This document shows positions 14,352 to 63,347 of a DNA stretch of 64,000 bases, one piece after another. The DNA is from a virus. The stretch spans positions 39,724 to 103,723 of the IMG/VR virus record IMGVR_UViG_3300032516_000011, one strand, 5' to 3'. Within the stretch, counting starts at the first letter, position 1, and each line of letters starts with the position of its first letter. Below the pieces are notes generated by a model. It made no database searches, had not been told where the DNA came from, and saw only the letters and a list, made by a program, of their open reading frames with translations. The translations under genes were made by a program, and so were the position numbers.

Positions 14352-14361
14352 TGGATTATCG

Positions 14362-27318: not shown

Positions 27319-27320
27319 GA

Positions 27321-39625: not shown

Positions 39626-41800
39626 TTAAGTGCCCTTCTCCTTATAATACATGTTTCTCAATGTGATGATATCTCTGGCTAATTCTTCTTCGGTTCTAGT
39701 TTTTAACCAGGCATAAAAATAATTAGCTTCAGGAGTAATTAATCCTGAGAGATTCACCTGTCGTCTTGCTCTTAACGCGTCTTTGACCACCCGCATGTGT
39801 TTCCAGAAATTATAATAAGGAAGCTTTAGCTTCATCATAAAACCTTTGGAATCTTCGAATACCATACCCTCAACGGCTGTAGTTTTTATCTTTTGGGCTA
39901 CATTGTAGTATCTGAAAAGCTGTTCGCGATTTTCTATTTGACATCGCAATCGTTTCCATGAAAGATTATGGCGCTGTGCAAATGTTGCGGTCTCTTCGTA
40001 TGGAAGCTTCTCATAATCCAATGTTCTTCGTACGAGATCTAAAAGAATTATGGCATATTTCATTGGATATTCGATTATATGTGGGTCGGTTTCCTGATTG
40101 ATAACTTCGAATACGAGCGAAATATTCTTTTCTTTTAGTTCCTGTTTAATAGCTTCCAAACCCACATTTGGTTTGGCTAGTGCCCAAGTTCGTTTAAACA
40201 TATCCGGGTAAATACCTTCGATTGAACTTTTTGAGGTAAAGAGTAGTTGGTCGGATGCTGTATCATAACCAATCATTCCAAGGAACCCATTATACTTGTC
40301 GAATACATTGACTGGATATTCTAATTTCACTGTTCCAATCTTTGTATCTTCCTGTTCGTTTACGTTGAAGAACTTGTTGTATGATCGAGCTACAATCTCG
40401 TTAGTCTTTGTGTTGATGAAAAGACCCCGAGCTTTCACTGTCATACCGTCCCAAACCTTTTTGTAGAAGGCATTCCTCGTGAAATTGAAGGAGGAGATAT
40501 CACCATAAGGACGTTCTGTTATGTATCGATTACTTCTTAACTGTTGAACGAATGAGTCGGATCCAAGGGTTGTTTCCACTTTTATATTCTTAGGACGAAA
40601 TACCGTATTCTTCACTTCTTGTACTACTATTTCATCTGTCAATAAAGTAAGTGTCACAACTCGAAGATTTTCACCAAACTCTATATCACCTTGAAGATTA
40701 TAGTATTTGGGATTTATCATTGTTGGAGATTTGGTTACGTTGCGATGTCCAGCTATTTGAATTGCATTTGTAGGTGAATTTTGCATCCATGATTCAGCAA
40801 CCTCAAGCATGTCTTCGTATTTTCCTACGCCTTTGATAAATTGTTCAGTAGCGATAGTTATGAGGCCTAAATCATCTGGAAGTTTGGAGATGCCGGCATG
40901 ATTAACTAATAGTAATCTGCTACCGTAATAGAAATAGGCTATCTGTGCAAATTTTCTACACAGTTGTCTAATTTCGCCTTTATCTAGATTACTGGCATCC
41001 AGTTCTTTCATTGTTTGGAAGAGAAACTCGTTTGAACGAATACTCACTATCTCTCCATGAGCCCAATGCTTCAGCCAGCGTTCGTGATTACCTTCGAGAA
41101 GAAGAATATTTGGTTTGGTATAGTTTTCCACTAACCAACGAACAACTTCGGTATTCTGGATACCGCGATCAATATAATCTCCAATAAAGATATAGTAGTG
41201 ATCCTCACAATAACCATTTTGCTCAAACCATTGTTTGAGTGGTTCATAGCATCCGTGAATATCGCCTATTACATGGATGGCTTTATAGTGACTAAGATCC
41301 AGAGGAGTATAATCAAATACGGTATTATATTCATGTGGCTTTACCACTTGAACATATCCGGGTACTGGCTGACTTTTAATACGCGCATCTAAGTTATCTA
41401 ATACATGCTCCGGCACCCATTTGTATTCCGCACGTGCTTTGTTTTGTATTTTACAAGTCTCTAATGGTACGTCCGAAAAATCTATACAGAAAATTCGATA
41501 CCGATATTCGCCTGCGAGGTTTTTATATTTGGCAAAATCACTTCCTTTGGAATGAGTAGCATCTATAAATACCAATTCTCCGCGCCCCATTCGTGTTTCA
41601 AGCATTTCAAATAGAAGTTGCCAAACCTTACGATCGTTTTCAGGACTGATGGCTAAAACTCCTTTTGTAGTTAATATTGGAGATTGTAGTTGGAGTCGAA
41701 TGTCATCTGCACATAATGTATAGGGGGTTAAGCCCTCTGTGGCAAGCCAATGTGACTTTCCACAGCCAACATTGCCGCGGAGCAAGTATAGATGTCTCAT
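39626..41800 (-). CDS. Pnkp-like RNA repair enzyme: kinase, phosphatase and ligase
   Basis: 724 residues in the three-domain order of bacterial Pnkp. Kinase: P-loop GNVGCGKS (9-16) and CADDIR. Phosphatase (about 180-380): GDIHG, GDYIDRG and GNHERW metal-binding motifs of the calcineurin-like family. Ligase (about 410-724): the nucleotidyl lysine K502 in FDKYNGFLG, with downstream strand motifs. Together they would heal and seal broken RNA ends. Bacterial Pnkp works with the Hen1 methyltransferase; none is seen here. It shares one base with the IF3 stop (TAATG). Confidence 0.83.
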   Translation of the reverse strand: MRHLYLLRGNVGCGKSHWLATEGLTPYTLCADDIRLQLQSPILTTKGVLAISPENDRKVWQLLFEMLETRMGRGELVFIDATHSKGSDFAKYKNLAGEYRYRIFCIDFSDVPLETCKIQNKARAEYKWVPEHVLDNLDARIKSQPVPGYVQVVKPHEYNTVFDYTPLDLSHYKAIHVIGDIHGCYEPLKQWFEQNGYCEDHYYIFIGDYIDRGIQNTEVVRWLVENYTKPNILLLEGNHERWLKHWAHGEIVSIRSNEFLFQTMKELDASNLDKGEIRQLCRKFAQIAYFYYGSRLLLVNHAGISKLPDDLGLITIATEQFIKGVGKYEDMLEVAESWMQNSPTNAIQIAGHRNVTKSPTMINPKYYNLQGDIEFGENLRVVTLTLLTDEIVVQEVKNTVFRPKNIKVETTLGSDSFVQQLRSNRYITERPYGDISSFNFTRNAFYKKVWDGMTVKARGLFINTKTNEIVARSYNKFFNVNEQEDTKIGTVKLEYPVNVFDKYNGFLGMIGYDTASDQLLFTSKSSIEGIYPDMFKRTWALAKPNVGLEAIKQELKEKNISLVFEVINQETDPHIIEYPMKYAIILLDLVRRTLDYEKLPYEETATFAQRHNLSWKRLRCQIENREQLFRYYNVAQKIKTTAVEGMVFEDSKGFMMKLKLPYYNFWKHMRVVKDALRARRQVNLSGLITPEANYFYAWLKTRTEEELARDIITLRNMYYKEKGT

Positions 41801-42273
41801 TATAGTTTCCTTAACATAGTTAGTATTTGATTTCCTTCACGCTTTGGAGATTCCATTGTTGCTTTAGTCAACAATATTTTTATTTTTTCCAACACTTCAT
41901 AGCCTTGTTCCGGGTGTGTCATTTCACGCCCATGAAATTTCACTACTATGCGAATAGGATGCCCTTTTTCTATTAGACTATTTATTTGTCGCGCCTTAGT
42001 TTGTAAATCATGGGCAGCAATTTTAACTCCAAATCTGAATTCTTTTAAATCAGGGGCCGGTTTTGACTTATGTGCTTTTTTTTGTTGGTATTGAAACTTT
42101 TCAAAGTTTTGTAACTTACATACCCCACGACCAACTTCAACAAGATCCAGCTCTTTAGAATGAGCTAACTTTATTGCTTCTGCAGTAGCAAGTGTGCCCA
42201 GATTGGTCCCAAGCTCATCAATTACGATTACTTGCTTATCTGTTATTTGATTATTGACGCGGTTCAAGTTCAA
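41800..42273 (-). CDS. infC: Translation initiation factor IF-3
   Basis: 157 residues. RVNNQI and NLGTLATAEAIKLAHSKELDLVEV form the IF3 N-domain, followed by a basic linker and the C-domain with KEFRFGVKIAAHDLQTKARQ, FHGREMTHPEQG and EGNQILTMLRKL. Bacterial IF3 is about 170-180 residues. No ATG fits the conserved start; the frame begins with TTG at 42273, preceded by GGAG. IF3 binds the 30S subunit and proofreads the initiator tRNA. It is coupled to the Pnkp-like gene and overlaps the gene before it by 23 nt. Confidence 0.88.
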   Translation of the reverse strand: MNLNRVNNQITDKQVIVIDELGTNLGTLATAEAIKLAHSKELDLVEVGRGVCKLQNFEKFQYQQKKAHKSKPAPDLKEFRFGVKIAAHDLQTKARQINSLIEKGHPIRIVVKFHGREMTHPEQGYEVLEKIKILLTKATMESPKREGNQILTMLRKL

Positions 42274-42589
42274 TTTTCTCCAAAGATTGGAAAGTTGTAT
42301 AAATATAAAAAGTACCTAAATTTGTACCCGTATTGGAAAAACATAGCCGTAATTTTATTACGTCGGAATCTGCCCTATAAGGTAAGGTCCAAGAAAGAAG
42401 TTCTATTTCAGTACCTATAGGAAGGGTTAGAACTCCTGTTTGATGATAGGTATTAGAGACTGGTGCAAATAACTTTCGTCCGTGCTTCTCTACACGTTGT
42501 CTAGCATGTTCAGTACTTAAACGTGCATGTATCTCGGTATCTATCATTACGGTAAATTTTTTTTGGGCCCCTAAAAAATTAAATCTCAT
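42251..42589 (-). CDS. Hypothetical protein before IF3
   Basis: 112 residues, mostly beta strands (FTVMIDTEIHARL, GVLTLPIGTEIELLSWTLPY, FYIYTTFQSLEKI). It overlaps both neighbours by a few bases. It is not recognised. Confidence 0.5.
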   Translation of the reverse strand: MRFNFLGAQKKFTVMIDTEIHARLSTEHARQRVEKHGRKLFAPVSNTYHQTGVLTLPIGTEIELLSWTLPYRADSDVIKLRLCFSNTGTNLGTFYIYTTFQSLEKIELEPRQ

Positions 42590-42933
42590 ACTTTTTTGTA
42601 TTTTGGTTTTAATATTTTCTCTTCGTCATCAGTATCTTCGGACAGAGTAGAAAGAAACGACATTTTTTTAGGAATGACATTAACTTCAGTCTCTGGCCCA
42701 TAATAATTAAATCGTTCCAGAAGAGATGATAAATTAATTCGGAGTTGCATTCGTACCACCATACGTTTTGAAGAACGCGCTTCGTTTTCTATATATTGGC
42801 GGTACATTTGTAAACGTTTATGTCTCTGTAAGCCAATTAATGGCCGTATTTCAGAGGCTATTGAATCAAAATACGGTTGTAATACTTGATTGACAATTTT
42901 TATTTTCGGATCTATGGATGGAATTTTAAGCAT
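42586..42933 (-). CDS. Hypothetical protein
   Basis: 115 residues, helical and basic, with many Arg and Lys (LIGLQRHKRLQMYRQYIENEARSSKRM). The C-terminal part is acidic (SEDTDDEEK). An RNA- or ribosome-related role is possible from charge and from IF3 nearby, but not shown. Confidence 0.45.
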   Translation of the reverse strand: MLKIPSIDPKIKIVNQVLQPYFDSIASEIRPLIGLQRHKRLQMYRQYIENEARSSKRMVVRMQLRINLSSLLERFNYYGPETEVNVIPKKMSFLSTLSEDTDDEEKILKPKYKKV

Positions 42934-42942
42934 ACATTACTC

Positions 42943-43422
42943 CTAAAATAATAGGTGTTCTAATTTCATTTCTTGGTTAATCCAAAAATTTAAACTTCGT
43001 TCAAACATAAAATCAGCTTTAGAAGCAGCTAATTCGCCAGCTAATTGTAATTTTTCATTCGGCCGACTCCGAAACACTATACTCATCTTTATACTAATAA
43101 CCACCAAATAACAAATAGCAACTAAAAACATTACGCGCGGAACCCATTGAAGCGTATCCGCTAGTGTTTTATATAAATATGTTTTTAGCGTATATTTACG
43201 CAGTTCAACAAATAATAAATTTGGGTATTTAGTATCAAATAAATACCCCGTACATAATCCAATATGAGATTGATTTCCACAGGCACCTGTGCAATCTCCA
43301 CGAAAATTTACAACCGTTTTTCCACAACCTTCACATACTATTGCATTATTTCGAATTTTGGTACAAAATGTGTCATGGTCCATGCCTAAAGTCTTAGCAC
43401 ATTGCCTACAATATTCTGCCAT
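42943..43422 (-). CDS. Zinc-finger protein with a membrane segment
   Basis: 159 residues from the ATG at 43422 (an earlier GTG at 43443 would overlap the previous gene). Cysteine pairs (CRQC, CEGC and CTGAC) form one or two zinc sites in the first 60 residues. A hydrophobic segment (WVPRVMFLVAICYLVVISI, about 105-125) anchors it in the membrane. It is not recognised. Confidence 0.5.
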   Translation of the reverse strand: MAEYCRQCAKTLGMDHDTFCTKIRNNAIVCEGCGKTVVNFRGDCTGACGNQSHIGLCTGYLFDTKYPNLLFVELRKYTLKTYLYKTLADTLQWVPRVMFLVAICYLVVISIKMSIVFRSRPNEKLQLAGELAASKADFMFERSLNFWINQEMKLEHLLF

Positions 43423-43429
43423 AGAGGGC

Positions 43430-43618
43430 TCATCTCTGCCCACGGGTGGTTCTGTGTTTATTAAGATATTCTTTTTTTAATTGTCGATATACGCCTTTGG
43501 TACAGTTTGTGGCCAATACAACGGCACCATTTGAATCTACGGTGTATTCTGCTTTTGGAAAACCTACTGTAAGTGATCTTGCCTTTTGTCTTAACGCACG
43601 AGCTTTTCTTCCGTTCAT
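43430..43618 (-). CDS. Small basic protein
   Basis: 62 residues, very basic at both ends (MNGRKARALRQKARS and KKEYLNKHRTTRGQR). It is first in the run ending with IF3 and Pnkp and just after the tRNA-Gln gene. The charge suggests RNA binding. It is not recognised. Confidence 0.5.
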   Translation of the reverse strand: MNGRKARALRQKARSLTVGFPKAEYTVDSNGAVVLATNCTKGVYRQLKKEYLNKHRTTRGQR

Positions 43619-43649
43619 ATTTTCCTCATAATTTAGTTTAGTTTATTGC

Positions 43650-43725
43650 TGGCTGGGAAGGAAGGATTTGAACCTTCAACGCCAGCCTCCAAAGGGCTGT
43701 GATCTACCAATTGATCTACTTCCCA
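43650..43725 (-). tRNA. tRNA-Gln(UUG)
   Basis: Full cloverleaf: acceptor TGGGAAG/CTTCCCA, D-arm GATC/GATC, anticodon stem CAGCC/GGCTG with loop CTTTGGA (anticodon TTG), T-arm GAAGG-TTCAAAT-CCTTC, then GCCA. The CCA end is encoded, unlike most tRNAs here. The U1-A72 pair fits tRNA-Gln. Confidence 0.88.
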
Positions 43726-43735
43726 AAAAATATCA

Positions 43736-43753
43736 GGGGCCCTTTTGGACCCC
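43736..43753 (-). terminator. Likely terminator or processing hairpin before tRNA-Gln
   Basis: Minus strand: stem GGGGTCC/GGGCCCC with loop AAAA, then TGATATTTTTT. It lies between the permuted tRNA-like region and tRNA-Gln. Confidence 0.55.
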
Positions 43754-43855
43754 CGATTCTTGAAGAGTGGCCAGCCTATCCGTGCCGACCACCCAAACGA
43801 TTTCAATACGTTTTTGTATTGTTTTGCCTGTTCACCTAATGCTGTGAAAGAATAC

Positions 43856-44057
43856 AACAGATATTACAATATCAAGTTAACCATTTGCTCTGCCTCTGAG
43901 CTACCGAGCCATATCGACGTATTAAGCAGCGGTGTGCACCCGCATGCTGGAAACGTCGGCAAACCTTCTGCTTGTCACGTGCATCAAGCGCACGTAAGGT
44001 TGCATAGAGACTCGGGCGGGACTCGAACCCGCGACCTTCTGGAAAATACCATCTGTT
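43856..44057 (-). ncRNA. tRNA-like RNA in permuted order (3' half before 5' half)
   Basis: On the minus strand a T-arm (GCGGG-TTCGAGT-CCCGC, 44032-44016) is followed by CCGAGTC (44015-44009) and T. About 98 nt later come GGCTCGG (43910-43904), TA and a perfect D-arm GCTC/GAGC (43901-43887). GGCTCGG pairs fully with CCGAGTC (six Watson-Crick pairs, one G-U), making a 7-bp acceptor. Outer arms AACAGAT (44057-44051) and ATCTGTT (43862-43856) can pair too. The layout matches a permuted tRNA or the tRNA part of a two-piece tmRNA, but the anticodon stem is weak and no tag peptide is clear. Confidence 0.5.
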
Positions 44058-44313
44058 ACTCCTTCAACACAGATCTGGTTACTCAAACGGCTTTGGGCAA
44101 TCTGGACAAGTTCACGGACAAGTACGCTACTATTCGCTGGGTGTACCCAGGTCAAAGCGACAAGTTCAAGGACAAGTTTATACCCAAAATTTTATTTGTA
44201 TCTTGGTGTTGCCAACTCAAGAGCGCGTTTATAGAGACGAGTGTTGCGAAATGCCTCGTCTCGATCTCCACGACTAATGACTATAGCAACTAAATACCAG
44301 CAATCGGTATCCA
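44058..44313 (-). other. Non-coding stretch with short repeats
   Basis: No gene seen. The 19-mer GACAAGTTCACGGACAAGT at 44105-44123 recurs with one mismatch at 44159-44177. A perfect 8-bp hairpin GAGACGAG/CTCGTCTC lies near 44234-44262. It probably belongs to the same RNA as the permuted tRNA-like element. Confidence 0.4.
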
Positions 44314-45069
44314 TTACTTACCGGACAAGATGAAGCCGAAAAGTTTTGAACCGATAGTGTTGGTCGAAGCTTCAGCATCATTTGCTTTCCGAATTGCCTT
44401 TTGAACGGCAGTCAGAAGCTTGTCTACTCTTTCAAGCAAGTTTGACTTGTAAGAGGAGGTGACTCTGGAATCCCATTGCATTTCAGTATAACTGCCGATG
44501 GTTTCCGTCTTCTCTTCTTTCTGAACTTGCGGAGGATGCTTATCTGTTCCGGGGTGAAGTACAAAAGGAACAGATACTTTTCTCGTGCGATACTGAACCA
44601 ACGGTTCAGCAAGCTTGAAAATATCCTTGCCCTTTTGCGAATCTTCGACCCACTTCATACCATTCGGAATCGTCGGAGCATTGAGAATGACCGAGCGGAT
44701 CTTCTGCAAACGATGCTCTAAAGAAAGCAGGAACGTCGCGGGGAGATTCGTCCCTATCATTACCCCATCCACGATAAGATCTGCCTTTGCTCCTTGGTTA
44801 GTAGTTTCCTTTTGGAGTAACCAGTCGTACTCGTTTCCAACCGTGTCGAAGGTATACTTCAACTTTGCAGGGACCGTATCGACAAGCTCCTTGGTATCCG
44901 GAGGTACGAGATCTTTATCACCTTCAATAAACGGTGCATATGTTTTGATTCGGCCAGTGTAAAACTCAACCGCCTTGTCTTTAAATGTCTTGATAGTCTC
45001 CTCGATAATCGAGTGTGCGCGGCCGACTGTATCCTTCTCTACCGCAAGAAGTTCGTGCATTTTTCCCAT
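44314..45069 (-). CDS. Conserved-looking hypothetical protein, 251 residues
   Basis: A helical protein with a long amphipathic N-terminus (AHSIIEETIKTFKDKAVEFYTG), a central KLKYTFDTVGNEYDWLLQKE segment and a helical C-terminus. GSYTEMQWDSRVTSSYKSNLLERVDKL looks like a regular conserved block. It is soluble, of unknown role, and set alone after the tRNA-like region. Confidence 0.55.
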   Translation of the reverse strand: MGKMHELLAVEKDTVGRAHSIIEETIKTFKDKAVEFYTGRIKTYAPFIEGDKDLVPPDTKELVDTVPAKLKYTFDTVGNEYDWLLQKETTNQGAKADLIVDGVMIGTNLPATFLLSLEHRLQKIRSVILNAPTIPNGMKWVEDSQKGKDIFKLAEPLVQYRTRKVSVPFVLHPGTDKHPPQVQKEEKTETIGSYTEMQWDSRVTSSYKSNLLERVDKLLTAVQKAIRKANDAEASTNTIGSKLFGFILSGK

Positions 45070-45081
45070 TGGTTCTATTCC

Positions 45082-45501
45082 TTACAAGTTTAATGGTAGC
45101 GGTACTTTACTTCCCGCCGAAATTTTTGACATATTAGTTATATAATCACTAATCTCATCAGCAAAATTGCTGTATACATCCGAATTTTCTATTATTATAT
45201 GATTCGGTTCTATAGTATAGCCCTTTTTCGCTTTTTCATTGATGAGTTTTTGAAACGTATCTTTATCGTAATCTTCGTGCATCCCTGATATACCACCATC
45301 GAATGGTCCCCAAAATCGTGCTAAGTACATCTTCTTATTATGCGTTGCTACGATAAAAATATAAAGCTTATTAGATGTTCCCGTTGTGCAACGAGTAATG
45401 ACATAGGTCATTATCTTTTTGTTATTAACGAGTGGTCCCAAACATGCTGGAATTGATAAATCAACACTCAATATGGAGGAAGTTTTTTTCTTACGGGGCA
45501 T
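45082..45501 (-). CDS. WGR-like domain protein
   Basis: 139 residues. ARFWGPFDGG, then a helix FQKLINEKAKKGYT, matches the shape of WGR domains (a W-G-R-like turn, a strand pair, then a helix ending KKGY), which bind nucleic acid ends in PARP proteins. The terminal part is hydrophilic. Recognition is tentative because the central W-G-R is W-G-P here. Confidence 0.5.
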   Translation of the reverse strand: MPRKKKTSSILSVDLSIPACLGPLVNNKKIMTYVITRCTTGTSNKLYIFIVATHNKKMYLARFWGPFDGGISGMHEDYDKDTFQKLINEKAKKGYTIEPNHIIIENSDVYSNFADEISDYITNMSKISAGSKVPLPLNL

Positions 45502-45722
45502 TATTGAGATCTTCGTTGATATTGTTTAGAGCGCTGTAGTTGTTTCTTTGTCGGTTTTGTACTCATGCATTTCTTTGTGGTACCGACACGTTGTGCACTT
45601 ACACCGTACCGACTGCCCCAATCACTAAGTAAATTGTTTGGAGCATCTGGTGTAACTACTATGCCCGTGATTGATTCAGCAAATGTAATTGGAGCTACTT
45701 TATTTTTAAACTGGGCTGTCAT
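45501..45722 (-). CDS. Small hypothetical protein with basic tail
   Basis: 73 residues, with a basic C-terminus (KPTKKQLQRSKQYQRRSQ). It shares a stop/start base with the WGR-like gene and overlaps the gene before it by 4 nt. It is not recognised. Confidence 0.5.
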   Translation of the reverse strand: MTAQFKNKVAPITFAESITGIVVTPDAPNNLLSDWGSRYGVSAQRVGTTKKCMSTKPTKKQLQRSKQYQRRSQ

Positions 45723-46048
45723 TTTACTCGAATCCTTTCGTAATTAACCGTGATTTTATCCGCAGATTTGGGTAGTGTGTTATATAGAAATTCTTTTATT
45801 TTGTCGAGTACATTACTTTCATCCCCAATATAAAATATGCTGTCTGCGTTATATTTTGGAGGTCTTATGGAATATACTTTCGTTCTATTATACCCCTCCT
45901 CATAAATTTTAAAAATTGGGTTTGCAGGCCTTTCAATTTGGACTTCACATTCACCTGATGGAAGAATAAAAATATTGATTTTTAGGAAGGGGCTTATAGC
46001 ACCGCTTTTATATAGTATTTGTGCCCATGCTGTTTTGTTTGAGACCAT
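45719..46048 (-). CDS. Hypothetical protein
   Basis: 109 residues, mixed strands and helices (LKINIFILPSGECEVQIERP, then IKEFLYNTLPKSADKITV). No family is recognised. It overlaps both neighbours in a compact operon. Confidence 0.45.
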   Translation of the reverse strand: MVSNKTAWAQILYKSGAISPFLKINIFILPSGECEVQIERPANPIFKIYEEGYNRTKVYSIRPPKYNADSIFYIGDESNVLDKIKEFLYNTLPKSADKITVNYERIRVK

Positions 46049-46427
46049 TTTGCCTCTCTTTCAATTGCTGCTTTTTTTCGTACAGTTTTAAAAGTTTTTT
46101 TTCTTTTTTCTCTTCTGCCGCTTGTTTTTGAGCCTTTGTTTTTTTTGGTTTAATTGGTGTCTGTGGAAGTGTACCTTTTAATTTTGGTTGTTCCACACCC
46201 TCATGAAAAACATTACCTTCTGCATCTACATACACTTTCATAAAATGCCAACCCTTAGCTTTTCGTATACCGTTAGTAGGATGCTGTACCGCTCGAATTT
46301 CTGGAGGTGCCACCATATGAGATACACAATACCAACAAATAACAGACTCAACACTTGAATCTACTTCTACCGCTTGTCCACAACCTTTACTACAAACCAT
46401 TGTCTTGAAAGTGACCATTTTTTTCAT
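46008..46427 (-). CDS. Zinc-finger protein with Lys-rich tail
   Basis: 139 residues from the ATG at 46427; a frame to 46475 exists but would overlap the phosphoesterase gene. CSKGCGQ and CWYC form a zinc ribbon near the start. The last 50 residues are almost all Lys, Gln and Glu (helical, RNA-binding style). It is not recognised. Confidence 0.5.
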   Translation of the reverse strand: MKKMVTFKTMVCSKGCGQAVEVDSSVESVICWYCVSHMVAPPEIRAVQHPTNGIRKAKGWHFMKVYVDAEGNVFHEGVEQPKLKGTLPQTPIKPKKTKAQKQAAEEKKEKKLLKLYEKKQQLKERQNGLKQNSMGTNTI

Positions 46428-46446
46428 GTCTATGGCACTATTTTTG

Positions 46447-46986
46447 CTACTTCTCGCTTTCCGTAACTTTAACATCTCGTGTTTTCATGGTTTCTAAAAG
46501 TTGGTCTAAACTAATTGGTTTGTAGTCATTTACATCGACACAAACATTCCAAGCTTTTTGGTTTTCAAATTGTTTTAATTGTCCTGCATTGTGTACATGT
46601 CCATACAGGTGTATACTGCCACTATGCCGTCTTTCCCAGGAAAGTATAGGATAGTGGAATAAAATTATTTCTTGATGGTCGATTTTCAACTTTAAATAAT
46701 GTCGAACCGATGCGAATTGTTGTTCGTACTCTATCAATGGTAATCGATCATGATTTCCAAGAATGAGGTGTTTAATTCCATTAAGGGGTTCGGCATAAGT
46801 TGATAGTCTGGATGCCATTTTATAAGCAAAATCTCCTATAATATAGACAATATCGGTTGGTTTAATAATCGAATTCCAATTGTCCGTAATGGTGGTATTC
46901 ATATGGTGTACATCGGTAAATGGACGCATACAAAGCTTTATTATATTGGTGTGTCCATAATGTTGGTCACTAGTAAAGTATATCAT
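46447..46986 (-). CDS. Calcineurin-like metallophosphoesterase
   Basis: 179 residues with all family motifs: TSDQHYGHTN (D-x-H), IIGDFAY (G-D), LGNHDR (G-N-H-D) and a GHVHN end motif. Two metal ions are bound by these Asp, His and Asn residues. Small stand-alone members act on nucleotides, RNA ends or cyclic nucleotides. The substrate is not clear here. Confidence 0.8.
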   Translation of the reverse strand: MIYFTSDQHYGHTNIIKLCMRPFTDVHHMNTTITDNWNSIIKPTDIVYIIGDFAYKMASRLSTYAEPLNGIKHLILGNHDRLPLIEYEQQFASVRHYLKLKIDHQEIILFHYPILSWERRHSGSIHLYGHVHNAGQLKQFENQKAWNVCVDVNDYKPISLDQLLETMKTRDVKVTESEK

Positions 46987-47010
46987 TTTTTTTCTTGCAC
47001 CTTAAATTTG

Positions 47011-47082
47011 AGCGGGTAATCAGAATCGGACTGATGTCTCCTGCTTGGAAGGCAGGGGCCCAAGCCACTAGACCACACCCGC
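47011..47082 (-). tRNA. tRNA-Gly(UCC)
   Basis: Acceptor GCGGGTG/TACCCGC (last pair G-U), D-arm, anticodon stem CCTGC/GCAGG with loop CTTCCAA (anticodon TCC), T-loop CCGATTC and discriminator T, which fits tRNA-Gly. CCA is not encoded. Confidence 0.85.
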
Positions 47083-47391
47083 CTGCATACCTTTCGAATA
47101 TGTTAAAATCAGTTGGTTGAAGGGAATAAACCGCATTTCACCAGATAATATATGACGATTACATAGCTGTTTAAGCTTTAGTAATGCGGTACTATGATCA
47201 TCGGCAATAGCAAAATAGCCCGACAATTTCCTAAAGTATCCTTTACTGACAAGTAAGGTGGCTTCTACATCACCTTTACGGACCCATTGAAAAATAATTT
47301 TTGCCGTGTTATGCTTCTCTTCGTCGGTAAAATATAGCGCTTTATATTTATGTTTTTTCATAAAATTTAGAGTGACTATAAAAATAGCCAC
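47068..47391 (-). CDS. Hypothetical protein, GTG start
   Basis: 107 residues, starting with GTG at 47391 behind a good AGGAG site. Basic and beta-rich (KYKALYFTDEEK, GDVEATLLVSKGYFRKL). Its last 15 nt overlap the tRNA-Gly gene. It is not recognised. Confidence 0.45.
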   Translation of the reverse strand: MAIFIVTLNFMKKHKYKALYFTDEEKHNTAKIIFQWVRKGDVEATLLVSKGYFRKLSGYFAIADDHSTALLKLKQLCNRHILSGEMRFIPFNQLILTYSKGMQAGVV

Positions 47392-47403
47392 CCCACTCCT
47401 ACT

Positions 47404-47961
47404 TTAATGATATAAAATTTCAATCAGCATATCTACCAAAGCATTTTTGTTTTGTATACTTGGGTCTGGAGTAGCTCCAATATCAGTTAATAAGTCAATC
47501 AACTCTTGCTCACTAAATTTTGAATCGATCATAGCAATAATTGCTGTTTGATTTGGCCCAATTGTAGCTGTCATATTAAAAGGCCCCAATGAGGTTTGGG
47601 CGTTCGTTGCCAATCCGATTTGTTGGAGTAGTGCCCCTAGGGGATTTCCGGTATTAACAGGTTCAAGTGGAATAGGAACTATTCGTACAATTCGTACAGT
47701 TTTAGTGCACATACTGCAACGTACCTCAGTAGCAGTGTCCTCAACCCAACTCTCCACGAGCGCCGCGTAACGGATTGGGTTTGAAGTATGTTGAAATTTA
47801 TCTTCACATAAGGAAGTGGGACGGGCAGACGTACCATCACGGTGTATGGTAACTTCGAATGTAATATCAATGAGCTCCGCTTCACCAGTCGCGGATCCAT
47901 CGACCCGGACGATTTGCAGATCCTTGTCGCAAAAGTTGCAGTGTGGCTTTCTTAATTTCAT
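47404..47961 (-). CDS. Zinc-binding hypothetical protein
   Basis: 185 residues. CNFC near the start and CSMC near residue 88 can bind zinc together. A glycine-poor middle strand region and a C-terminal helix pair (SEQELIDLLTDIGATPD) follow. It shares an ATGA-type junction with the gene before it. It is not recognised. Confidence 0.5.
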   Translation of the reverse strand: MKLRKPHCNFCDKDLQIVRVDGSATGEAELIDITFEVTIHRDGTSARPTSLCEDKFQHTSNPIRYAALVESWVEDTATEVRCSMCTKTVRIVRIVPIPLEPVNTGNPLGALLQQIGLATNAQTSLGPFNMTATIGPNQTAIIAMIDSKFSEQELIDLLTDIGATPDPSIQNKNALVDMLIEILYH

Positions 47962-48401
47962 TTTGTTTTTTCCTCGACTTCGTTACATTTAGTTTCCTTT
48001 TCAGCTTTTTTTTCATAGAGGTGCACCATTTCTCCCACTATTTTTCTAATGTTTGCAATAGTTGCTCTAATAGTCCCATCAAAATCTTCGAATGGGATAC
48101 CCTGTAAAAAATCATGCCTTGGATGATGTAGCATTACTCTGTGTGTACTAATGCTTCCACGAGACATAACCCACCCAGTAGCCAGAGTGTGGTCTTTACG
48201 CTTTACAATTTTTGTCATATACCAAACAAATCCATTATGAAATACTGGTTTGTTAATACGTTCCATTGCCTTCTTATAAGTCACATGATGGCCTTTTTTA
48301 AATACAGCCCGTGCAAGAGTATCGGTTTTTTGTCGTACTTTACCCAGCGCTATTGTAGCATTTTTATGTTCTTCGCGAAGAATTTCATAGTTCTTGTTCA
48401 T
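47958..48401 (-). CDS. Hypothetical protein
   Basis: 147 residues. The N-terminal helix is basic and the middle (HVTYKKAMERINKPVFHNGFVWYMTKIVKRKDHT) beta-rich. The C-terminus is highly charged. It overlaps the genes on both sides by 1-4 nt. It is not recognised. Confidence 0.45.
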   Translation of the reverse strand: MNKNYEILREEHKNATIALGKVRQKTDTLARAVFKKGHHVTYKKAMERINKPVFHNGFVWYMTKIVKRKDHTLATGWVMSRGSISTHRVMLHHPRHDFLQGIPFEDFDGTIRATIANIRKIVGEMVHLYEKKAEKETKCNEVEEKTK

Positions 48402-48745
48402 TAGTATTTATTGCCCCTCATTTTAAAATATTCTTGCCACACTGTCTTACGATCTTCTTTAGTAAATACTGAGCCCCATTCTTTACCTTGAGTAGGTATT
48501 TGAGGAGGAACTCGAGTAAGAAGGGCACGCTCTAAACTAAGTTTACGCCCCGTATTTTTACTGAATCGATCACGATTACTACATTCCGCTTTGCCTTGAA
48601 TAAGCAGTCGTTTTTCAATGTCTGAAAGTATTTCATAAATATAACACTCTGTGTGCATGCGAAACAATATCCCCCCAGATACAGTTGTAAAATTTGCATG
48701 TCTCCATGTAATGAGATATTTTTTACCGCTCAGTATTGCAAACAT
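48401..48745 (-). CDS. Hypothetical protein
   Basis: 114 residues, basic and probably alpha/beta (KKYLITWRHANFTTVSGGILFRM). It shares a base with its downstream neighbour. It is not recognised. Confidence 0.45.
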   Translation of the reverse strand: MFAILSGKKYLITWRHANFTTVSGGILFRMHTECYIYEILSDIEKRLLIQGKAECSNRDRFSKNTGRKLSLERALLTRVPPQIPTQGKEWGSVFTKEDRKTVWQEYFKMRGNKY

Positions 48746-48896
48746 CTTTAATTTCCTTAATCTGTTTGTGTAACAATTGTTTTAGAAAACGTCTTATTCG
48801 TCTACGGAGTGGCTTTTTTCCTTCCACATCGCCACAAATAATACATCCAATAACTTTACCATGAGTTTTATATGTTTCTTTGAATGTGTCTTTCAT
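48723..48896 (-). CDS. Small zinc-knuckle peptide, 57 residues
   Basis: A short ORF (MKDTFKETYKTHGKVIGC) with one CxxC pair and a very basic middle (KKPLRRRIRRFLKQLLHKQ). It overlaps the next start by 23 nt. The ribosome binding site is weak, so this is a tentative gene. Confidence 0.4.
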   Translation of the reverse strand: MKDTFKETYKTHGKVIGCIICGDVEGKKPLRRRIRRFLKQLLHKQIKEIKDVCNTER

Positions 48897-48916
48897 TGGT
48901 ATTGTAAATAAATTTG

Positions 48917-49044
48917 AGTGTGGGGTCGGAATCGAACCGACGATAGCGATACAACTATATCTTTTAGCACTATTATCTAACTTCTAAATTACTATATATA
49001 TATTTAAATTCTATTTGCTGCCCTTCCACTTGGGCTACCCACAC
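48917..49044 (-). pseudogene. tRNA-like gene, 128 nt, enlarged or broken
   Basis: The ends are tRNA-like: acceptor GTGTGGG/CCCACAC (7 bp), TA, D-arm GCCC/GGGC, T-arm GTCGG-TTCGATT-CCGAC. The middle is about 75 nt of A+T-rich sequence instead of a normal anticodon arm. A stem TTTAG/CTAAA is possible around a TAG or TAA-like anticodon, with a 16-nt loop. It may be a class II (Leu-type) tRNA with an insertion, or a decayed gene. Confidence 0.45.
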
Positions 49045-49057
49045 TCGACACTACTTT

Positions 49058-50158
49058 TCAATCTTTGATATTATAAATTTCCGCCAATGTAAATCCTGTT
49101 GTTTTTTCAGCCTTGATTTTACTGAAATCTTTTTCTATTTTATTTGCCAGTGTTTTTGCCTCTTCTAAATTTAATGCCCTGGTATGAACAGTAGCATAAC
49201 ATCGTCCTGGTCTAAGAAGAGCATCGTCAATATTGGAAATACCATTAAGATTCGTGGATAGAATTATTTTTCTCTTAATTCCCGAAATCATTCCATCTGA
49301 ACCCCCTAACAACTTATACATAAAGGTATTACCATCTTTTCGACTTTTTAGATTAAAATCGATATCTTCAAGAATCATAGCATCGTAGCGTTCACCTAAA
49401 AAACGAACAAAAAATTGATCGTCTTGAAAAATCTTATCTTCCATAGAATATAAGATCGACGGATTCTTTGTACATTTAGCTTTATCCAATGAGTAATCAT
49501 ATGAATCTTCTACCTCGGTATCAGTATTCTTTAGGCTATTTTTTCTTATTCCTATGGTTTTAAGAATATGTTTAATAAGGCGCGTTTTTCCTGTTCCAGG
49601 CGGACCGATAAGTATCATTACCGGAGATTTATGATCAAGATACGCATCTATATAGGCATTAAAATTATTTATATACGGATAAGCTTCAGGATAGACCGTT
49701 TCATCTAACTCTGTTTGTAGATCGACATAATCCATACCATTGCGAGATGTGATAGCCCATGATATGTCCAATGCCATTCGCTGATGAATATACTTACTAA
49801 ATTTTTGTAACACCAGTTCTCTTAATCGTACCGTACGATCAAGTGTTGTGAGAATCCATATTTTAAATCTTACTAATGCTCCTTCATCTCTTATCACCTC
49901 AGATTTTAAAATAAATTCATCATTGATTACAATGATGCTCGCACCTCCGACACTGTAGGTTTTGCCTAAGTCAGCCATAGTATTCAAAATTTCAGCTGTC
50001 CTACATTCAAAGGTTTCTTCTATGTATATTCGTGTATCAAATGTTCCTCTTTCAATAGTTGAAAGAGCAAGGCCTTTGACGTGAATGTCAAAGACCTTTG
50101 CCAGTCCATCATATCCTTCAACTGAGAAATTTAACAGCCTAGATAATTGCTCAGGCAC
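49058..50158 (-). CDS. AAA+ ATPase, BCS1-like C-terminal fold
   Basis: 366 residues. The first 170 form an alpha/beta N-terminal region. The AAA core has Walker A LIGPPGTGKT (about 181-190), Walker B AMILEDID (about 260), sensor 1 ILSTNLN and the LRPGR arginine finger. This is a classic single AAA domain as in BCS1, spastin or phage remodelling ATPases. The substrate is unknown. Confidence 0.8.
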   Translation of the reverse strand: MPEQLSRLLNFSVEGYDGLAKVFDIHVKGLALSTIERGTFDTRIYIEETFECRTAEILNTMADLGKTYSVGGASIIVINDEFILKSEVIRDEGALVRFKIWILTTLDRTVRLRELVLQKFSKYIHQRMALDISWAITSRNGMDYVDLQTELDETVYPEAYPYINNFNAYIDAYLDHKSPVMILIGPPGTGKTRLIKHILKTIGIRKNSLKNTDTEVEDSYDYSLDKAKCTKNPSILYSMEDKIFQDDQFFVRFLGERYDAMILEDIDFNLKSRKDGNTFMYKLLGGSDGMISGIKRKIILSTNLNGISNIDDALLRPGRCYATVHTRALNLEEAKTLANKIEKDFSKIKAEKTTGFTLAEIYNIKD

Positions 50159-50237
50159 TCTATTACTCCTGGTACATACGGCAATAAGATATGCAGTTGT
50201 ACATATATGTTCGTGATTATTACGTGAATTTTGTGTA

Positions 50238-50783
50238 TCAGGTACATCCTAATATCTCTTTTGTTTTGGCATACATGACTTCGTCGATAAAGAACATGAA
50301 TCCGTTATTTAATTCAAGCCATCCTCTTGTACGTGGGTACTCCTTTTTTTGTAAGGCTTCGTATAATTGGACCCGCTCCTTTGAACTTGTTTGTGGAGCT
50401 TTGGAACATGCTTCCTTTGCCCAGACCAAGATTCGACGACGCACTTCATTTTCGTAAGGAATCGGACAAATGTACATTATCATACCTTCGGAGGGACATA
50501 GTATGCCGCTCACCAAGTTTTTCTTATCACCCTCACGCGAAAGAAAGTTTAGTGTTTGTGAAATGCTACCATGTTCAAATTCCGCGGCACCCATGTATTC
50601 GAACGTGAAAATATTTTTTAGTGCCTTCATTGCTTCGGGGGAAAGCCCTCCGTCTTTATATCCACCACCAAATACAAAGGGGTTCACACAATTTATTGGA
50701 GGCTCCAAGCGTTGAATAAGCCAGCTATTTTCCATTTCATGTGCTTCAAGTAGCGTAAGAGGCAATTCACCTGGAAACGACAT
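50238..50783 (-). CDS. Conserved-looking hypothetical protein
   Basis: 181 residues with a striking block FEYMGAAEFEHG (about 80-91) inside an alpha/beta protein, and an ILCPSEGMIMYICPIPY strand region. The block looks conserved and may be an active site, but I cannot name the family. Confidence 0.5.
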   Translation of the reverse strand: MSFPGELPLTLLEAHEMENSWLIQRLEPPINCVNPFVFGGGYKDGGLSPEAMKALKNIFTFEYMGAAEFEHGSISQTLNFLSREGDKKNLVSGILCPSEGMIMYICPIPYENEVRRRILVWAKEACSKAPQTSSKERVQLYEALQKKEYPRTRGWLELNNGFMFFIDEVMYAKTKEILGCT

Positions 50784-50828
50784 AGTATTTAACCTTTCTT
50801 TTTGTTAAAGTTAGTCACTCATACTACC

Positions 50829-51056
50829 TTATACCATATTTGTCGGAGTGGGTTCCAACGTATTTATCATAGGCGCGTCAAATTTTATAGGAGGTGGTTC
50901 TACAATATCTTCAAACACTGCATCTTTAATTTCGTCTACTATAAATATCTTTCCATCATTGCGTCTTAAATGTACCGCGGAAGGGACTGCTGCATGTTCC
51001 GGCAATATATTTAAAACAACAAATTTCTTTCCTTCTATCTCTATGATTTGTTCCAT
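50829..51056 (-). CDS. Small beta-rich hypothetical protein
   Basis: 75 residues, beta strands (IIEIEGKKFVVLNILPEHA, GKIFIVDEIKDAVFEDI) and a Pro-rich acidic tail. It looks like a small beta-barrel or nucleic-acid-binding peptide. It is not recognised. Confidence 0.5.
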   Translation of the reverse strand: MEQIIEIEGKKFVVLNILPEHAAVPSAVHLRRNDGKIFIVDEIKDAVFEDIVEPPPIKFDAPMINTLEPTPTNMV

Positions 51057-51104
51057 ATAGCTCCAGAATAGGTATTATTCGTTCAAATTTGACTTGTAGG
51101 ACCA

Positions 51105-51401
51105 TTATAAGAAATGTATGGCTCGCAGTAGTTGTTTTATACTGTTTTCATCTACTATGACATCATAAACCTGCATAAACTGTATTTGTATTCGTTTCGC
51201 CAAAGAAGGTATATTCTCTCCTATATATAGTAGAGTACATTCTCGATATCCACCCGACAGTGTTTCACGTACTACTATGTCAAGCTCCTCTCCGTACTGG
51301 TCAATAGAATATATACAAGGAATAGGACTAAAGATAGCATTGCTACCTATATTGTTGGCCGGAATAAAAAAGCCACTAAATGAATATTGTGCTAATTTCA
51401 T
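51105..51401 (-). CDS. Small hypothetical protein
   Basis: 98 residues from the ATG at 51401, just outside the tRNA-Thr gene; a frame to 51431 would run into that tRNA. It is beta-rich, with GEELDIVVRETLSGGYRECTLLY. It is not recognised. Confidence 0.45.
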   Translation of the reverse strand: MKLAQYSFSGFFIPANNIGSNAIFSPIPCIYSIDQYGEELDIVVRETLSGGYRECTLLYIGENIPSLAKRIQIQFMQVYDVIVDENSIKQLLRAIHFL

Positions 51402-51404
51402 ATG

Positions 51405-51476
51405 AGCTGACTGGAAGACTCGAACTTCCAATCTGTGGTTTACAAAACCACTGCTTCACCATTAAGCTAAGTCAGC
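51405..51476 (-). tRNA. tRNA-Thr(UGU)
   Basis: Acceptor GCTGACT/AGTCAGC, D-arm GCTT/AAGC, anticodon stem GTGGT/ACCAC with loop TTTGTAA (anticodon TGT), T-arm GGAAG-TTCGAGT-CTTCC. Discriminator T, no CCA. Confidence 0.85.
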
Positions 51477-51650
51477 GAATGGGGGCAAACCAGGCTTTGC
51501 ACTTGGCCCTGTTCCGGCATTCATCATCAGTAGAGTGCTTGTCACTGATGGAGCCCGCGCTTCTCGGGAACCGCACATTCACCCCAATCTCCACCGGTTT
51601 TCAGGGCCGGGGCGATACCAATTACGCTTTATGTCTCCATGTTATTCTAT
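51477..51650 (-). other. Structured gap
   Basis: No secure gene. A 7-bp hairpin CATCAGT/ACTGATG lies near 51526-51553. A short minus-strand frame from GTG without a ribosome binding site ends inside tRNA-Thr and is not called. It could be a leader or a small RNA. Confidence 0.3.
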
Positions 51651-51974
51651 TCATAATATTCGTCCTAATCCCCATCGTTCATATGGTATGTGGTTAGCGT
51701 TACAAGCTACCGCCATTCTATTGACTCCCGCGGGATTTAAAGATATGATGATTACTTTTTTCACGATAGCTTTATCGTGTTCGAGAAGGCCAACAAGAAA
51801 ATCATAACCATCCATTCCCATACCGAGATCGTGATCGAGATAAAGGATATCGATAATGGATTTGGTATCCAGTATAAACTCTGCTGCCTCTTCTCCTGTA
51901 CGGAAGACTTTGACGTCATCGGCATTTATTCCATACCATGCCGGATCCTTCATGTCATCTAGAAAAATTTTCAT
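51651..51974 (-). CDS. Cyclic-phosphate processing receiver-like domain protein
   Basis: 107 residues from the ATG at 51974, chosen for the GAGG upstream (a frame to 52010 exists). MKIFLDDMKDP, then VKVFRTGEEAAEFI, then DILYLDHDLGMGMDGYDFL match small receiver-like domains described as cyclic-phosphate processing. These keep the receiver acidic pocket (DD and DHDLG) but not the usual phosphorelay context. It may process cyclic phosphates, perhaps linked to RNA ends. Role is inferred. Confidence 0.6.
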   Translation of the reverse strand: MKIFLDDMKDPAWYGINADDVKVFRTGEEAAEFILDTKSIIDILYLDHDLGMGMDGYDFLVGLLEHDKAIVKKVIIISLNPAGVNRMAVACNANHIPYERWGLGRIL

Positions 51975-52140
51975 TGGAAGGCTTTTCCTCTTTTTTATTA
52001 AATCGTTCACAAATATCGCGACAATTTTTGCCAGCCTCTTTTAATTTATATTTTATTGCCCATCCATACCAACAATTCCTACACGGATGATTTGGTATAG
52101 TCGATAATGTATAGTCTGGATGTAGTTCACATTTTATCAT
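51955..52140 (-). CDS. Small cysteine-rich protein
   Basis: 61 residues from the ATG at 52140, preceded by AGAGGAAAG; a longer frame to 52239 lacks a site. Cysteines (KCELHPDY, HPCRNCWYGW, NCRDIC) suggest a zinc fold. It overlaps the start of the receiver-like gene. It is not recognised. Confidence 0.5.
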   Translation of the reverse strand: MIKCELHPDYTLSTIPNHPCRNCWYGWAIKYKLKEAGKNCRDICERFNKKEEKPSNENFSR

Positions 52141-52265
52141 GGTTCTTTCCTCTTTATAGCTTTCTAACCCCCCTAACGATATGGCGAAAATTGCTGGAGC
52201 GCTTTCGTTTAGCGCACTTACAAAAGTAACACTTCCCATTTAAGGGCGTCCACCTCAGCAACTTG

Positions 52266-52339
52266 TACTCCTGACGGGGCTCGAACCCATAATTACCACC
52301 TTGAAAGGGTGGTGACTTAACCAGTTTGTCTACAGGAGC
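52266..52339 (-). tRNA. tRNA-Glu(UUC)
   Basis: Acceptor GCTCCTG/CAGGAGT (first pair G-U), D-arm GAC/GTC, anticodon stem CCACC/GGTGG with loop CTTTCAA (anticodon TTC), T-arm ATGGG-TTCGAGC-CCCGT. No CCA. It lies 3 nt after tRNA-Asn. Confidence 0.85.
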
Positions 52340-52342
52340 GTG

Positions 52343-52414
52343 CTCACCCAGATGGATTTGAACCAACGACTTCGCGGTTAACAGCCGCGCGTTCTACCAC
52401 TGAACTATGGGTGA
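52343..52414 (-). tRNA. tRNA-Asn(GUU)
   Basis: Acceptor TCACCCA/TGGGTGA, D-arm GTTC/GAAC, anticodon stem CGCGG/CCGCG with loop CTGTTAA (anticodon GTT), T-arm with loop TTCAAAT. Discriminator G, as usual for Asn. No CCA. Confidence 0.87.
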
Positions 52415-52558
52415 ATATGAAGAAGTAGTCGAGTATTTACGCCACGCTTAAACGGTCTCGATAGTTTTTACTTGGCACTACTCTTCGTATGGGGTGTTAA
52501 ACAAACTGTTGGCGCATTGCATGTCATCGCTACATGTTTGTGAGTTATATTTTTTTTG

Positions 52559-52631
52559 TGGACCTAACAGGAATCGAACCTGCGATGTCCTGATTGCAGG
52601 TCAGGTGCTCTCCCAACTGAGCTATAGGCCC
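52559..52631 (-). tRNA. tRNA-Ala(UGC)
   Basis: Acceptor GGGCCTA/TAGGTCC, with a G3-U70 identity pair typical of tRNA-Ala. D-arm GCTC/GAGC, anticodon stem CCTGA/TCAGG with loop CCTGCAA (anticodon TGC), T-arm GCAGG-TTCGATT-CCTGT. No CCA. Confidence 0.88.
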
Positions 52632-52717
52632 CGGGGTGGTGATGCTGGTGTGACTCATAAAGTCCTGGCTTATTCTGGTATCAGGTTCTTTTGCCTGACC
52701 GAACCAACATCATCGTA

Positions 52718-52791
52718 CACGTCAGGAGGGACTTGAACCCCCAACCTGCGGTTTTGGAGACCGCTGCTCTAGCCAATTGAGCTACTGACGT
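52718..52791 (-). tRNA. tRNA-Trp(CCA)
   Basis: Acceptor ACGTCAG/CTGACGT, D-arm GCTC/GAGC, anticodon stem GCGGT/ACCGC with loop CTCCAAA (anticodon CCA), T-arm GGGGG-TTCAAGT-CCCTC. Discriminator G as expected for Trp. No CCA. Confidence 0.87.
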
Positions 52792-52795
52792 ATAG

Positions 52796-52866
52796 TTGCG
52801 GGAGAGGGACTTGAACCCCCAGCAACGGGTTATGAGCCCGCCAAGTTACCATTACTCCATCCCGCA
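52796..52866 (-). tRNA. tRNA-Met(CAU), initiator-like
   Basis: Acceptor TGCGGGA/TCCCGCA, anticodon loop CTCATAA (CAT). The anticodon stem GCGGG/CCCGT carries three G-C pairs in a row (G29-G31 with C39-C41), the main mark of initiator tRNAs. The first pair is U1-A72 rather than the usual mismatched C1-A72. The cloverleaf otherwise resembles bacterial initiator tRNA. Its anticodon-stem feature is the one IF3 reads, and IF3 is encoded in this window. No CCA. Confidence 0.8.
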
Positions 52867-52879
52867 AGGATAATGTAAT

Positions 52880-52952
52880 TGGATACGAGAGCAGGACTTG
52901 AACCTGCAACTCTAGGGTGCGGCCCCAGCAAGCTACATTGCTCTATCTCGTA
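52880..52952 (-). tRNA. tRNA with unclear anticodon (CCA encoded)
   Basis: Acceptor TACGAGA/TCTCGTA, D-arm GAGC/GCTT with a short loop, T-arm GCAGG-TTCAAGT-CCTGC, discriminator T and an encoded CCA. The anticodon arm CTGGG/CCTAG has loop GCCGCAC, with C where U33 is normally fixed, so the anticodon (CGC by position) is doubtful. It may be a decaying or unusual tRNA. Confidence 0.55.
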
Positions 52953-52959
52953 TTCATAT

Positions 52960-53180
52960 AAAGGAGGGTGGTTGCCCTTACGTTGATGAGACGTCGTTGA
53001 GTTATCAGCTCGACCTCCACCCTCAAAACGGGATGCTCTGGGCTCGACGTTCTGGGTATTTATCGCATCCTTTTGGTACATTTCCCCAGCCCACTATAGA
53101 AACAAGTCACTGACAATCCTGGAACCACATCGATTTCACGCGCTCCTGAGCTCTGTCTAGGGTTCAGTGAGTGTATGAAT
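52960..53180 (-). other. Structured tRNA-array spacer
   Basis: Three hairpin-closed segments on the minus strand: CACTGA/TCAGTG (53171-53111), GGATGC/GCATCC (53073-53033), and GAGGGTGG/CCACCCTC (53025-52964). The last includes ACGT-CTCATCA-ACGT, an anticodon-like arm with CAT, but no T-arm. They could be tRNA-like RNAs without normal arms, or remnants. No protein gene is seen. Confidence 0.35.
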
Positions 53181-53608: not shown

Positions 53609-53661
53609 GTGAATATCCTTTGTAAGTTAGTGGTTTATTGATCCTTTATTTATTATGTATG

Positions 53662-53735
53662 TGGGCCCTGATGGATTTGAACCAACGACCTATTGATTAT
53701 GAGTCAATTGCTCTAACCAACTGAGCTAAGGGCCC
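53662..53735 (-). tRNA. tRNA-Ile2(CAU)
   Basis: Acceptor GGGCCCT/AGGGCCC, D-arm GCT/AGC, anticodon stem ATTGA/TCAAT with loop CTCATAA (CAT). It closely resembles the bacterial minor Ile tRNA (GGCCCCTTAGCTCAGTGG start), whose CAT is changed to lysidine-AU and reads AUA. Initiator features are absent. No CCA. Confidence 0.78.
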
Positions 53736-53738
53736 GTG

Positions 53739-53811
53739 TGCGTGCTGAAGGACTCGAACCTCCGGCATGTACCGTGTAAGGATACCGCTCTACCAACTGA
53801 GCTAAGCACGC
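53739..53811 (-). tRNA. tRNA-Val(UAC)
   Basis: Acceptor GCGTGCT/AGCACGC, D-arm GCTC/GAGC, anticodon stem GTATC/GGTAC with loop CTTACAC (anticodon TAC), T-arm GGAGG-TTCGAGT-CCTTC. No CCA. It overlaps the stop of the PurA-like gene by a few bases. Confidence 0.86.
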
Positions 53812-56287: not shown

Positions 56288-56347
56288 GTGTTTCCTTAAG
56301 ATGTTAATATAGGTTAATTATGTTATCTTATACCAGTAAAAAATGTG

Positions 56348-56421
56348 TGCGCCTTCCTTGATTTGAACAAGGCACCTGCGCCTTATCAGAGCGCCGCTCT
56401 AACCAAATGAGCTAAAGGCGC
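56348..56421 (-). tRNA. tRNA-Ile(GAU)
   Basis: Acceptor GCGCCTT/AAGGCGC, D-arm GCTC/GAGC, anticodon stem GCGCT/GGCGC with loop CTGATAA (anticodon GAT), T-arm CCTTG-TTCAAAT-CAAGG. No CCA. Confidence 0.86.
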
Positions 56422-57757: not shown

Positions 57758-57795
57758 AACATTACATTATACAACTTTTTTTGATTAATGTCAAG

Positions 57796-57869
57796 TATCC
57801 CTGGAGGGACTTGAACCCCCGGCAAGCAGGTTAGAAACCTGCTGCTCTATCCAACTGAGCTACAGGGAC
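57796..57869 (-). tRNA. tRNA-Arg(UCU)
   Basis: Acceptor GTCCCTG/CAGGGAT, D-arm GCTC/GAGC, anticodon stem GCAGG/CCTGC with loop TTTCTAA (anticodon TCT), T-arm GGGGG-TTCAAGT-CCCTC. No CCA. It would read the AGA codon, frequent in AT-rich phages. Confidence 0.86.
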
Positions 57870-57872
57870 ATG

Positions 57873-57957
57873 TCCCTTAGAGAGGAGTTGAACCTCCATG
57901 CAATTGAATGCGGCAGACTCTAAATCTGCTGTGTCTTTCCAGTTTCACCACTAAGGG
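57873..57957 (-). tRNA. tRNA-Leu(UAG)
   Basis: A class II tRNA: acceptor CCCTTAG/CTAAGGG, TGGTG D-arm start, anticodon stem GCAGA/TCTGC with loop TTTAGAG (anticodon TAG), a long variable arm closed by GCA/TGC, T-loop TTCAACT, discriminator A. No CCA. Confidence 0.83.
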
Positions 57958-63328: not shown

Positions 63329-63347
63329 AGAGCTTACAATAAGCTCT
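63329..63347 (-). terminator. Rho-independent terminator overlapping the clpP stop
   Basis: Minus strand: stem AGAGCTTA/TAAGCTCT with loop TTG, followed by a run of eight T. The stop codon is inside the hairpin. Confidence 0.8.

Follow-up and report, generated by a model that had tools for sequence, protein, structure and literature searches.

We analysed a 64,000-nucleotide stretch of viral DNA (hereafter the window; positions 39724-103723 of the 103,723-base IMG/VR virus record IMGVR_UViG_3300032516_000011) and found that this virus of bacteria encodes both an initiator-type tRNA-Met and a full translation initiation factor 3 (IF3). IF3 and the tRNA serve one process, and we consider it fairly probable (roughly 60%) that they belong to a translation-upkeep kit, which would sustain protein synthesis as host RNA is lost to decay or to cleavage by host tRNA nucleases. 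A joint action of the two on start-site choice is without support. Phage IF3 and phage tRNAs are already known, and genome size is enough to account for finding the two together. The core finding is thus ordinary; two side leads, a pattern in the anticodon stems of phage initiator-type tRNAs and an unusual CGC tRNA, merit study of their own.

A phage variant of the initiator tRNA

The initiator-type tRNA gene (52795-52866, minus strand; TGCGGGATGGAGTAATGGTAACTTGGCGGGCTCATAACCCGTTGCTGGGGGTTCAAGTCCCTCTCCCGCAA) was detected by ARAGORN and by Rfam model RF00005 (61.5 bits), with the lower boundary at 52795 or 52796. This confirms the tRNA with a CAT anticodon and three G-C pairs that the initial annotation had placed at 52796-52866. 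The tRNA carries CAU in the loop CUCAUAA, the anticodon-stem pairs G29:C41, G30:C40 and G31:C39, and A73, as well as A11:U24, G2:C71 and C3:G70, which are described as aids to formylation (PMC7949028). In all of these it is the same as bacterial tRNA-fMet of the metY/metZ type, from which it differs by a 4-nt variable loop, by the lack of an encoded CCA (also missing from nearly all other tRNAs of the record) and by the pairing of positions 1 and 72. Bacterial tRNA-fMet is recognized by CAU, G-C pairs at 29-31:39-41, R11:Y24 and an unpaired 1:72; the window tRNA has all but the last, having U1:A72 instead. As U1:A72 occurs in 54 of 254 viral initiator-type tRNAs and in none of 102 bacterial initiators, we regard it as a phage-type deviation. 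Given this pair, the window tRNA is classed from its sequence as initiator-type, phage variant, and its formylation is likely, not assured, because of the same deviation.

To score the body of the tRNA separately from its anticodon arm, we used a position model trained, with that arm left out, on bacterial initiator tRNAs and 1,736 elongators. The window tRNA scored +18.5 bits in favour of an initiator, at the bottom end of the bacterial initiator range (5th percentile, 20.7 bits), in contrast to a maximum of +2.1 among the 1,736 elongators. Initiator scoring, which had been proposed as a check, therefore supports the call: the body alone sets the tRNA apart from every elongator compared, so its initiator identity exceeds chance. 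The pair at 11:24 follows the same division, being A:U in 109 of 122 bacterial initiators and in 66 of 108 viral tRNAs with the three G-C pairs, and C:G in 131 of 158 viral CAU tRNAs without them. The nearest tRNA compared was a bacterial one, Hydrogenimonas tRNA-fMet (84.5%).

The tRNA might instead act in elongation only, as an extra methionine tRNA. A paired U1:A72, as found here, favours EF-Tu binding over formylation. However, the tRNA retains its initiator body together with A11:U24 and the three G-C pairs, and a normal elongator tRNA-Met(CAU) is already encoded 0.8 kb away (53661-53735, minus strand, ARAGORN; C11:G24, stem AUUGA/UCAAU), which scores -61 bits in the masked-arm model. We consider an elongation-only role very improbable.

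IF3 and the adjoining RNA repair gene

As the initial annotation had stated, the same phage encodes IF3. The infC-like gene (41800-42273, minus strand) specifies a full two-domain protein, which we aligned to the Thermus and E. coli factors; both Pfam domains scored above threshold (IF3_N, 2.5e-18, 66.4 bits against a cut-off of 26.9; IF3_C, 2e-19, 69.8 bits against 34.8). Neither in the window nor in a 79% identical relative is there an in-frame ATG or GTG upstream of the first conserved IF3 residues, and the start codon is for that reason most likely UUG, at 42273 or 42267. The start overlaps the end of the upstream open reading frame (ORF). We considered and dropped the idea that a rare start codon lets IF3 regulate its own synthesis, as in the case of E. 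coli infC, because IF3 does not discriminate against UUG starts (PMC4611024) and because the conserved bases at the start also code for the upstream ORF.

On its other side the IF3 gene abuts an RNA repair gene (39626-41800, minus strand), a fusion of a kinase, a calcineurin phosphoesterase and a T4 Rnl1-type RNA ligase, whose ATG shares one base with the IF3 stop codon. In one close relative (L002/L369, a 73-kb contig) the order of the two genes is kept, with 79% identity for IF3 and 74% for the repair enzyme; IF3 is probably cotranscribed with the latter. We found no tRNA match in this relative, the contig of which stops short of the tRNA cluster.

The window IF3 shares the two domains and the invariant K110 and R133 with the IF3s of jumbo phages (Mimasvirus GAP32, Atu_ph07 and the huge phages of Al-Shayeb et al. 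2020), to which it is 18-36% identical in the alignment. Unlike jumbo phage genomes, however, its record is only 103.7 kb long (possibly a fragment), and its neighbour is the RNA repair enzyme, whereas in most annotated jumbo phages IF3 adjoins ClpS or a Clp ATPase.

Co-occurrence of IF3 and initiator-type tRNAs

The initial annotation had proposed that IF3 and the tRNA together shift host start-site choice towards phage mRNA. Such a matched pair would be consistent with the presence of both genes and with the part that IF3 plays in the choice of the initiator tRNA and the fidelity of start-codon use (PMC7949028, PMC4611024). If the association were special, IF3 should be found with initiator-type tRNAs beyond what genome size predicts. 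A scan of viral contigs for the initiator arm with three G-C pairs gave at least 120 matches. IF3 was found in 1 of 50 records with this arm, in 5 of 50 picked by the initiator body and in 1 of 50 picked by an elongator-Met pattern. Among contigs of up to 200 kb, IF3 was present in 2 of 90 with an initiator-type tRNA versus 1 of 50 in the elongator-Met set (p = 1), and among larger contigs with an initiator-type tRNA in 4 of 10; the comparison is coarse, as samples are small, the control contigs have a lower mean length, fragments occur among the contigs and control records may have initiator-type tRNAs elsewhere. IF3 presence thus tracks genome size, and phage contigs that lack IF3 often have an initiator-type tRNA.

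We also searched 14 IF3-encoding jumbo phages over their whole length. A CAU tRNA with A11:U24 was found in 11 of them, compared with 4 of 8 jumbo phages in which IF3 had not been seen (Fisher p = 0.34), a difference in the direction expected for a matched pair, although about six near relatives in the set of 14 overstate its independence. All three G-C pairs were present only in LR756501; the other IF3 jumbo phages with an initiator-type tRNA mostly had one or two pairs altered, which is contrary to a conservation of the pairs matched to IF3. Co-occurrence beyond genome size, as expected of a coupled module, was not found in these small samples. We also dropped a link between IF3 and changed anticodon stems, as phages in general show such stems just as often.

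The premise that IF3 checks the three pairs is a simplification. The 30S head, through A1339 and G1338 of 16S rRNA, reads G30-C40 and G29-C41 (PMC11497404), and direct inspection of the pairs by IF3 is rather unlikely, the factor working through 30S conformation (PMC4611024), although IF3 has also been given a role in selecting them (PMC7949028). With 16S rRNA as the main reader of the pairs, there is no need for a phage IF3 to match a phage tRNA whose pairs are normal. The two genes are, moreover, separated by 10.5 kb, and nothing in the sequence supports a shift of start-site choice. We therefore regard a matched pair as distinctly unlikely.

The dependence on genome size (IF3 in 4 of 10 contigs longer than 200 kb and in 2 of 90 shorter ones) would also fit a different history, in which the tRNA and IF3 are passengers captured from hosts as the genome grew and are under little selection for function. 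The high variability of phage tRNA sets agrees with this. However, both IF3 domains are intact, and the gene keeps 79% identity in the relative, beside the repair gene. The tRNA is structurally intact as well and at best 84.5% identical to any cellular tRNA-fMet compared, a distance that makes recent capture unlikely. A passenger origin without much function thus seems to us rather improbable.

A putative translation-upkeep kit

The 103.7-kb record holds further genes of the same kind. In addition to its 14 tRNAs, all within the window (ARAGORN and Rfam), and the fusion abutting IF3, it encodes a transfer-messenger RNA (tmRNA), a tRNA nucleotidyltransferase-like protein and a cREC_REC protein. 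The tmRNA lies to the left of the window (L123:14266-14651, which is record 14266-14651, minus strand; Rfam RF00023, 89.6 bits), with a predicted 29-residue tag, AKNNSTFADIFTFGKPVGMKSVAPVFALA. The nucleotidyltransferase resembles CCA-adding and poly(A) polymerase enzymes (L124:6291-7541, minus strand; record about 26091-27341), and the cREC_REC protein, a cyclic-phosphate-processing receiver domain protein (51651-52010, minus strand), adjoins the tRNA cluster. Phage tRNAs have been proposed to counter anticodon nucleases (PMC10264068), and VapC toxins that cleave tRNA-fMet exist (PMC8522696). Huge phages encode IF1 and IF3 (PMC7162821), and jumbo phage IF3 has been suggested to aid translation or ribosome rescue (PMC7824862).

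In a translation-upkeep kit the initiator-type tRNA, once expressed, would substitute for host tRNA-fMet. The host methionyl-tRNA synthetase would charge it (CAU, A73) and host Fmt would formylate it (A11:U24, weak U1:A72 pair), possibly at a lower rate, after which it would start translation. Host formylation is assumed because the ORFs scanned against Pfam, a part of those in the record, contained no formyltransferase or deformylase domain. IF3 would serve this purpose too, either as a reserve factor for recycling and initiation or as the preferred one.

Several features weigh against this interpretation. The pair U1:A72 departs from the mismatch at 1:72 that drives formylation in bacterial initiators. 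The anticodon loop CUCAUAA is the standard one, so no resistance to tRNA-fMet nucleases is predicted from it. Finally, the phage IF3 keeps K110, R112 and R133 (E. coli numbering) and differs from E. coli IF3 by R99G, Y107L, R116S, R131H and R168N. We take all of these positions to be tied to 30S binding by the E. coli factor, and, with several of them replaced, the function of the phage IF3 on the ribosome is not assured.

Anticodon stems of phage initiator-type tRNAs

Like other phage-encoded tRNA-fMet genes and tRNA arrays, the window tRNA lies within a tRNA cluster, and IMG/VR phage contigs often contain initiator-type tRNAs. We searched viral contigs with an initiator body pattern that left the anticodon stem free. 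The 113 matches included 45 stems with AGG/CCU, 24 with GGG/CCC, 22 with UGG/CCA and 10 with AGC/GCU. The set of three G-C pairs, intact in the window tRNA, was thus broken in 89 of the 113. G30:C40 was kept in 191 of 199 distinct viral sequences (a pool of two scans, with contigs L452-L650, one scan being confined to a phage D-loop subclass), in which 29:41 and 31:39 varied. In 110 of 398 Pseudomonadota genomes there was a match with a base other than G at position 29, which was A throughout among the matches listed; this is the variant known in alphaproteobacteria such as rhizobia. Judged from these matches, position 29 appears to have one variant in Pseudomonadota hosts and several in phages. 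Some of the viral AGG stems may belong to phages of A29 hosts or to host DNA in contigs.

The tRNA gene next to the initiator-type one (52880-52952, minus strand), called Ala(CGC), also has an initiator body. The nearest tRNAs are all initiators (best, 78%), and with the anticodon arm masked it scores +12.1 bits for initiator versus elongator. The acceptor and T stems are perfect, A11:U24 is present, positions 29-31 read GGG, with 29:41 as G.U, and CCA is encoded. Its loop, GCCGCAC, has C33 instead of U33, position 73 is U, and it lacks G3:U70, the identity pair of alanyl-tRNA synthetase; these features, together with the initiator body, indicate that it is not a normal tRNA-Ala. Where its stems depart from those of the CAU tRNA, the changes come in pairs, which speaks against simple decay. 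It is possibly a recoded initiator tRNA, a decoy or a pseudogene. We searched viral contigs by pattern for further initiator-bodied tRNAs in which the stem is G-C and the middle base of the anticodon is not A; one other contig matched, L687, where a tRNA called Ser (286 onward, plus strand) has an initiator body, the stem CCGGG/CCCGG and the loop AUACUUC.

We found no published report of the phage stem pattern in the open-access literature; phages of some hosts are known to avoid tRNA-fMet (PMC10264068). The break of the three-G-C rule by phages with G30:C40 kept, and the initiator-bodied CGC tRNA, may be new. Tentatively, and with less than even confidence, we suggest that phages have their own class of initiator tRNAs, in which the body and G30:C40 (read by 16S rRNA A1339) are kept, 29:41 and 31:39 are free to drift and U:A is frequent at 1:72. 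Relaxed stems could evade nucleases that recognize the anticodon arm of host tRNA-fMet and yet pass the ribosome, and the adjoining CGC sister could serve as a decoy for such nucleases or be a recoded initiator. The stem pattern matters more than the pairing of IF3 with the tRNA. If phage initiator-type tRNAs do initiate, phages would in effect have mutated the initiator anticodon stem on a large scale in nature, with an outcome that agrees with the structural view of G30:C40 as the critical contact.

Other features of the window

The remaining tRNA genes, all on the minus strand and called by ARAGORN, are tRNA-Gln(UUG), which encodes CCA (43650-43725), tRNA-Gly(UCC) (47010-47082), tRNA-Thr(UGU) (51404-51476), tRNA-Glu(UUC) and tRNA-Asn(GUU) (52265-52414), tRNA-Ala(UGC) and tRNA-Trp(CCA) (52558-52792), tRNA-Val(UAC) (53738-53811), tRNA-Ile(GAU) (56347-56421), and tRNA-Arg(UCU) and tRNA-Leu(UAG) (57795-57957). 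Beside the tRNAs, positions 52953-53040 form an imperfect hairpin with the ends GAGGGTGG and CCACCCTC (predicted fold, -22.3 kcal/mol), perhaps a degenerate tRNA. An adenylosuccinate synthetase homologue (53802-54902, minus strand), possibly a PurZ-like enzyme for modified adenine, also adjoins the cluster.

Elsewhere, a reverse transcriptase gene (23713-24597, minus strand; RVT_1, 7.7e-21) possibly belongs to a diversity-generating retroelement; a search near it for a direct repeat of at least 60 bases, as a template/variable pair, found none. The window also encodes an unusually full protein quality-control set, comprising a MoxR-type AAA ATPase (27321-28478), an ATP-dependent protease (PHROG 4871; 36916-39084), an Hsp20 homologue (62577-63038) and a ClpP homologue (63334-63939).

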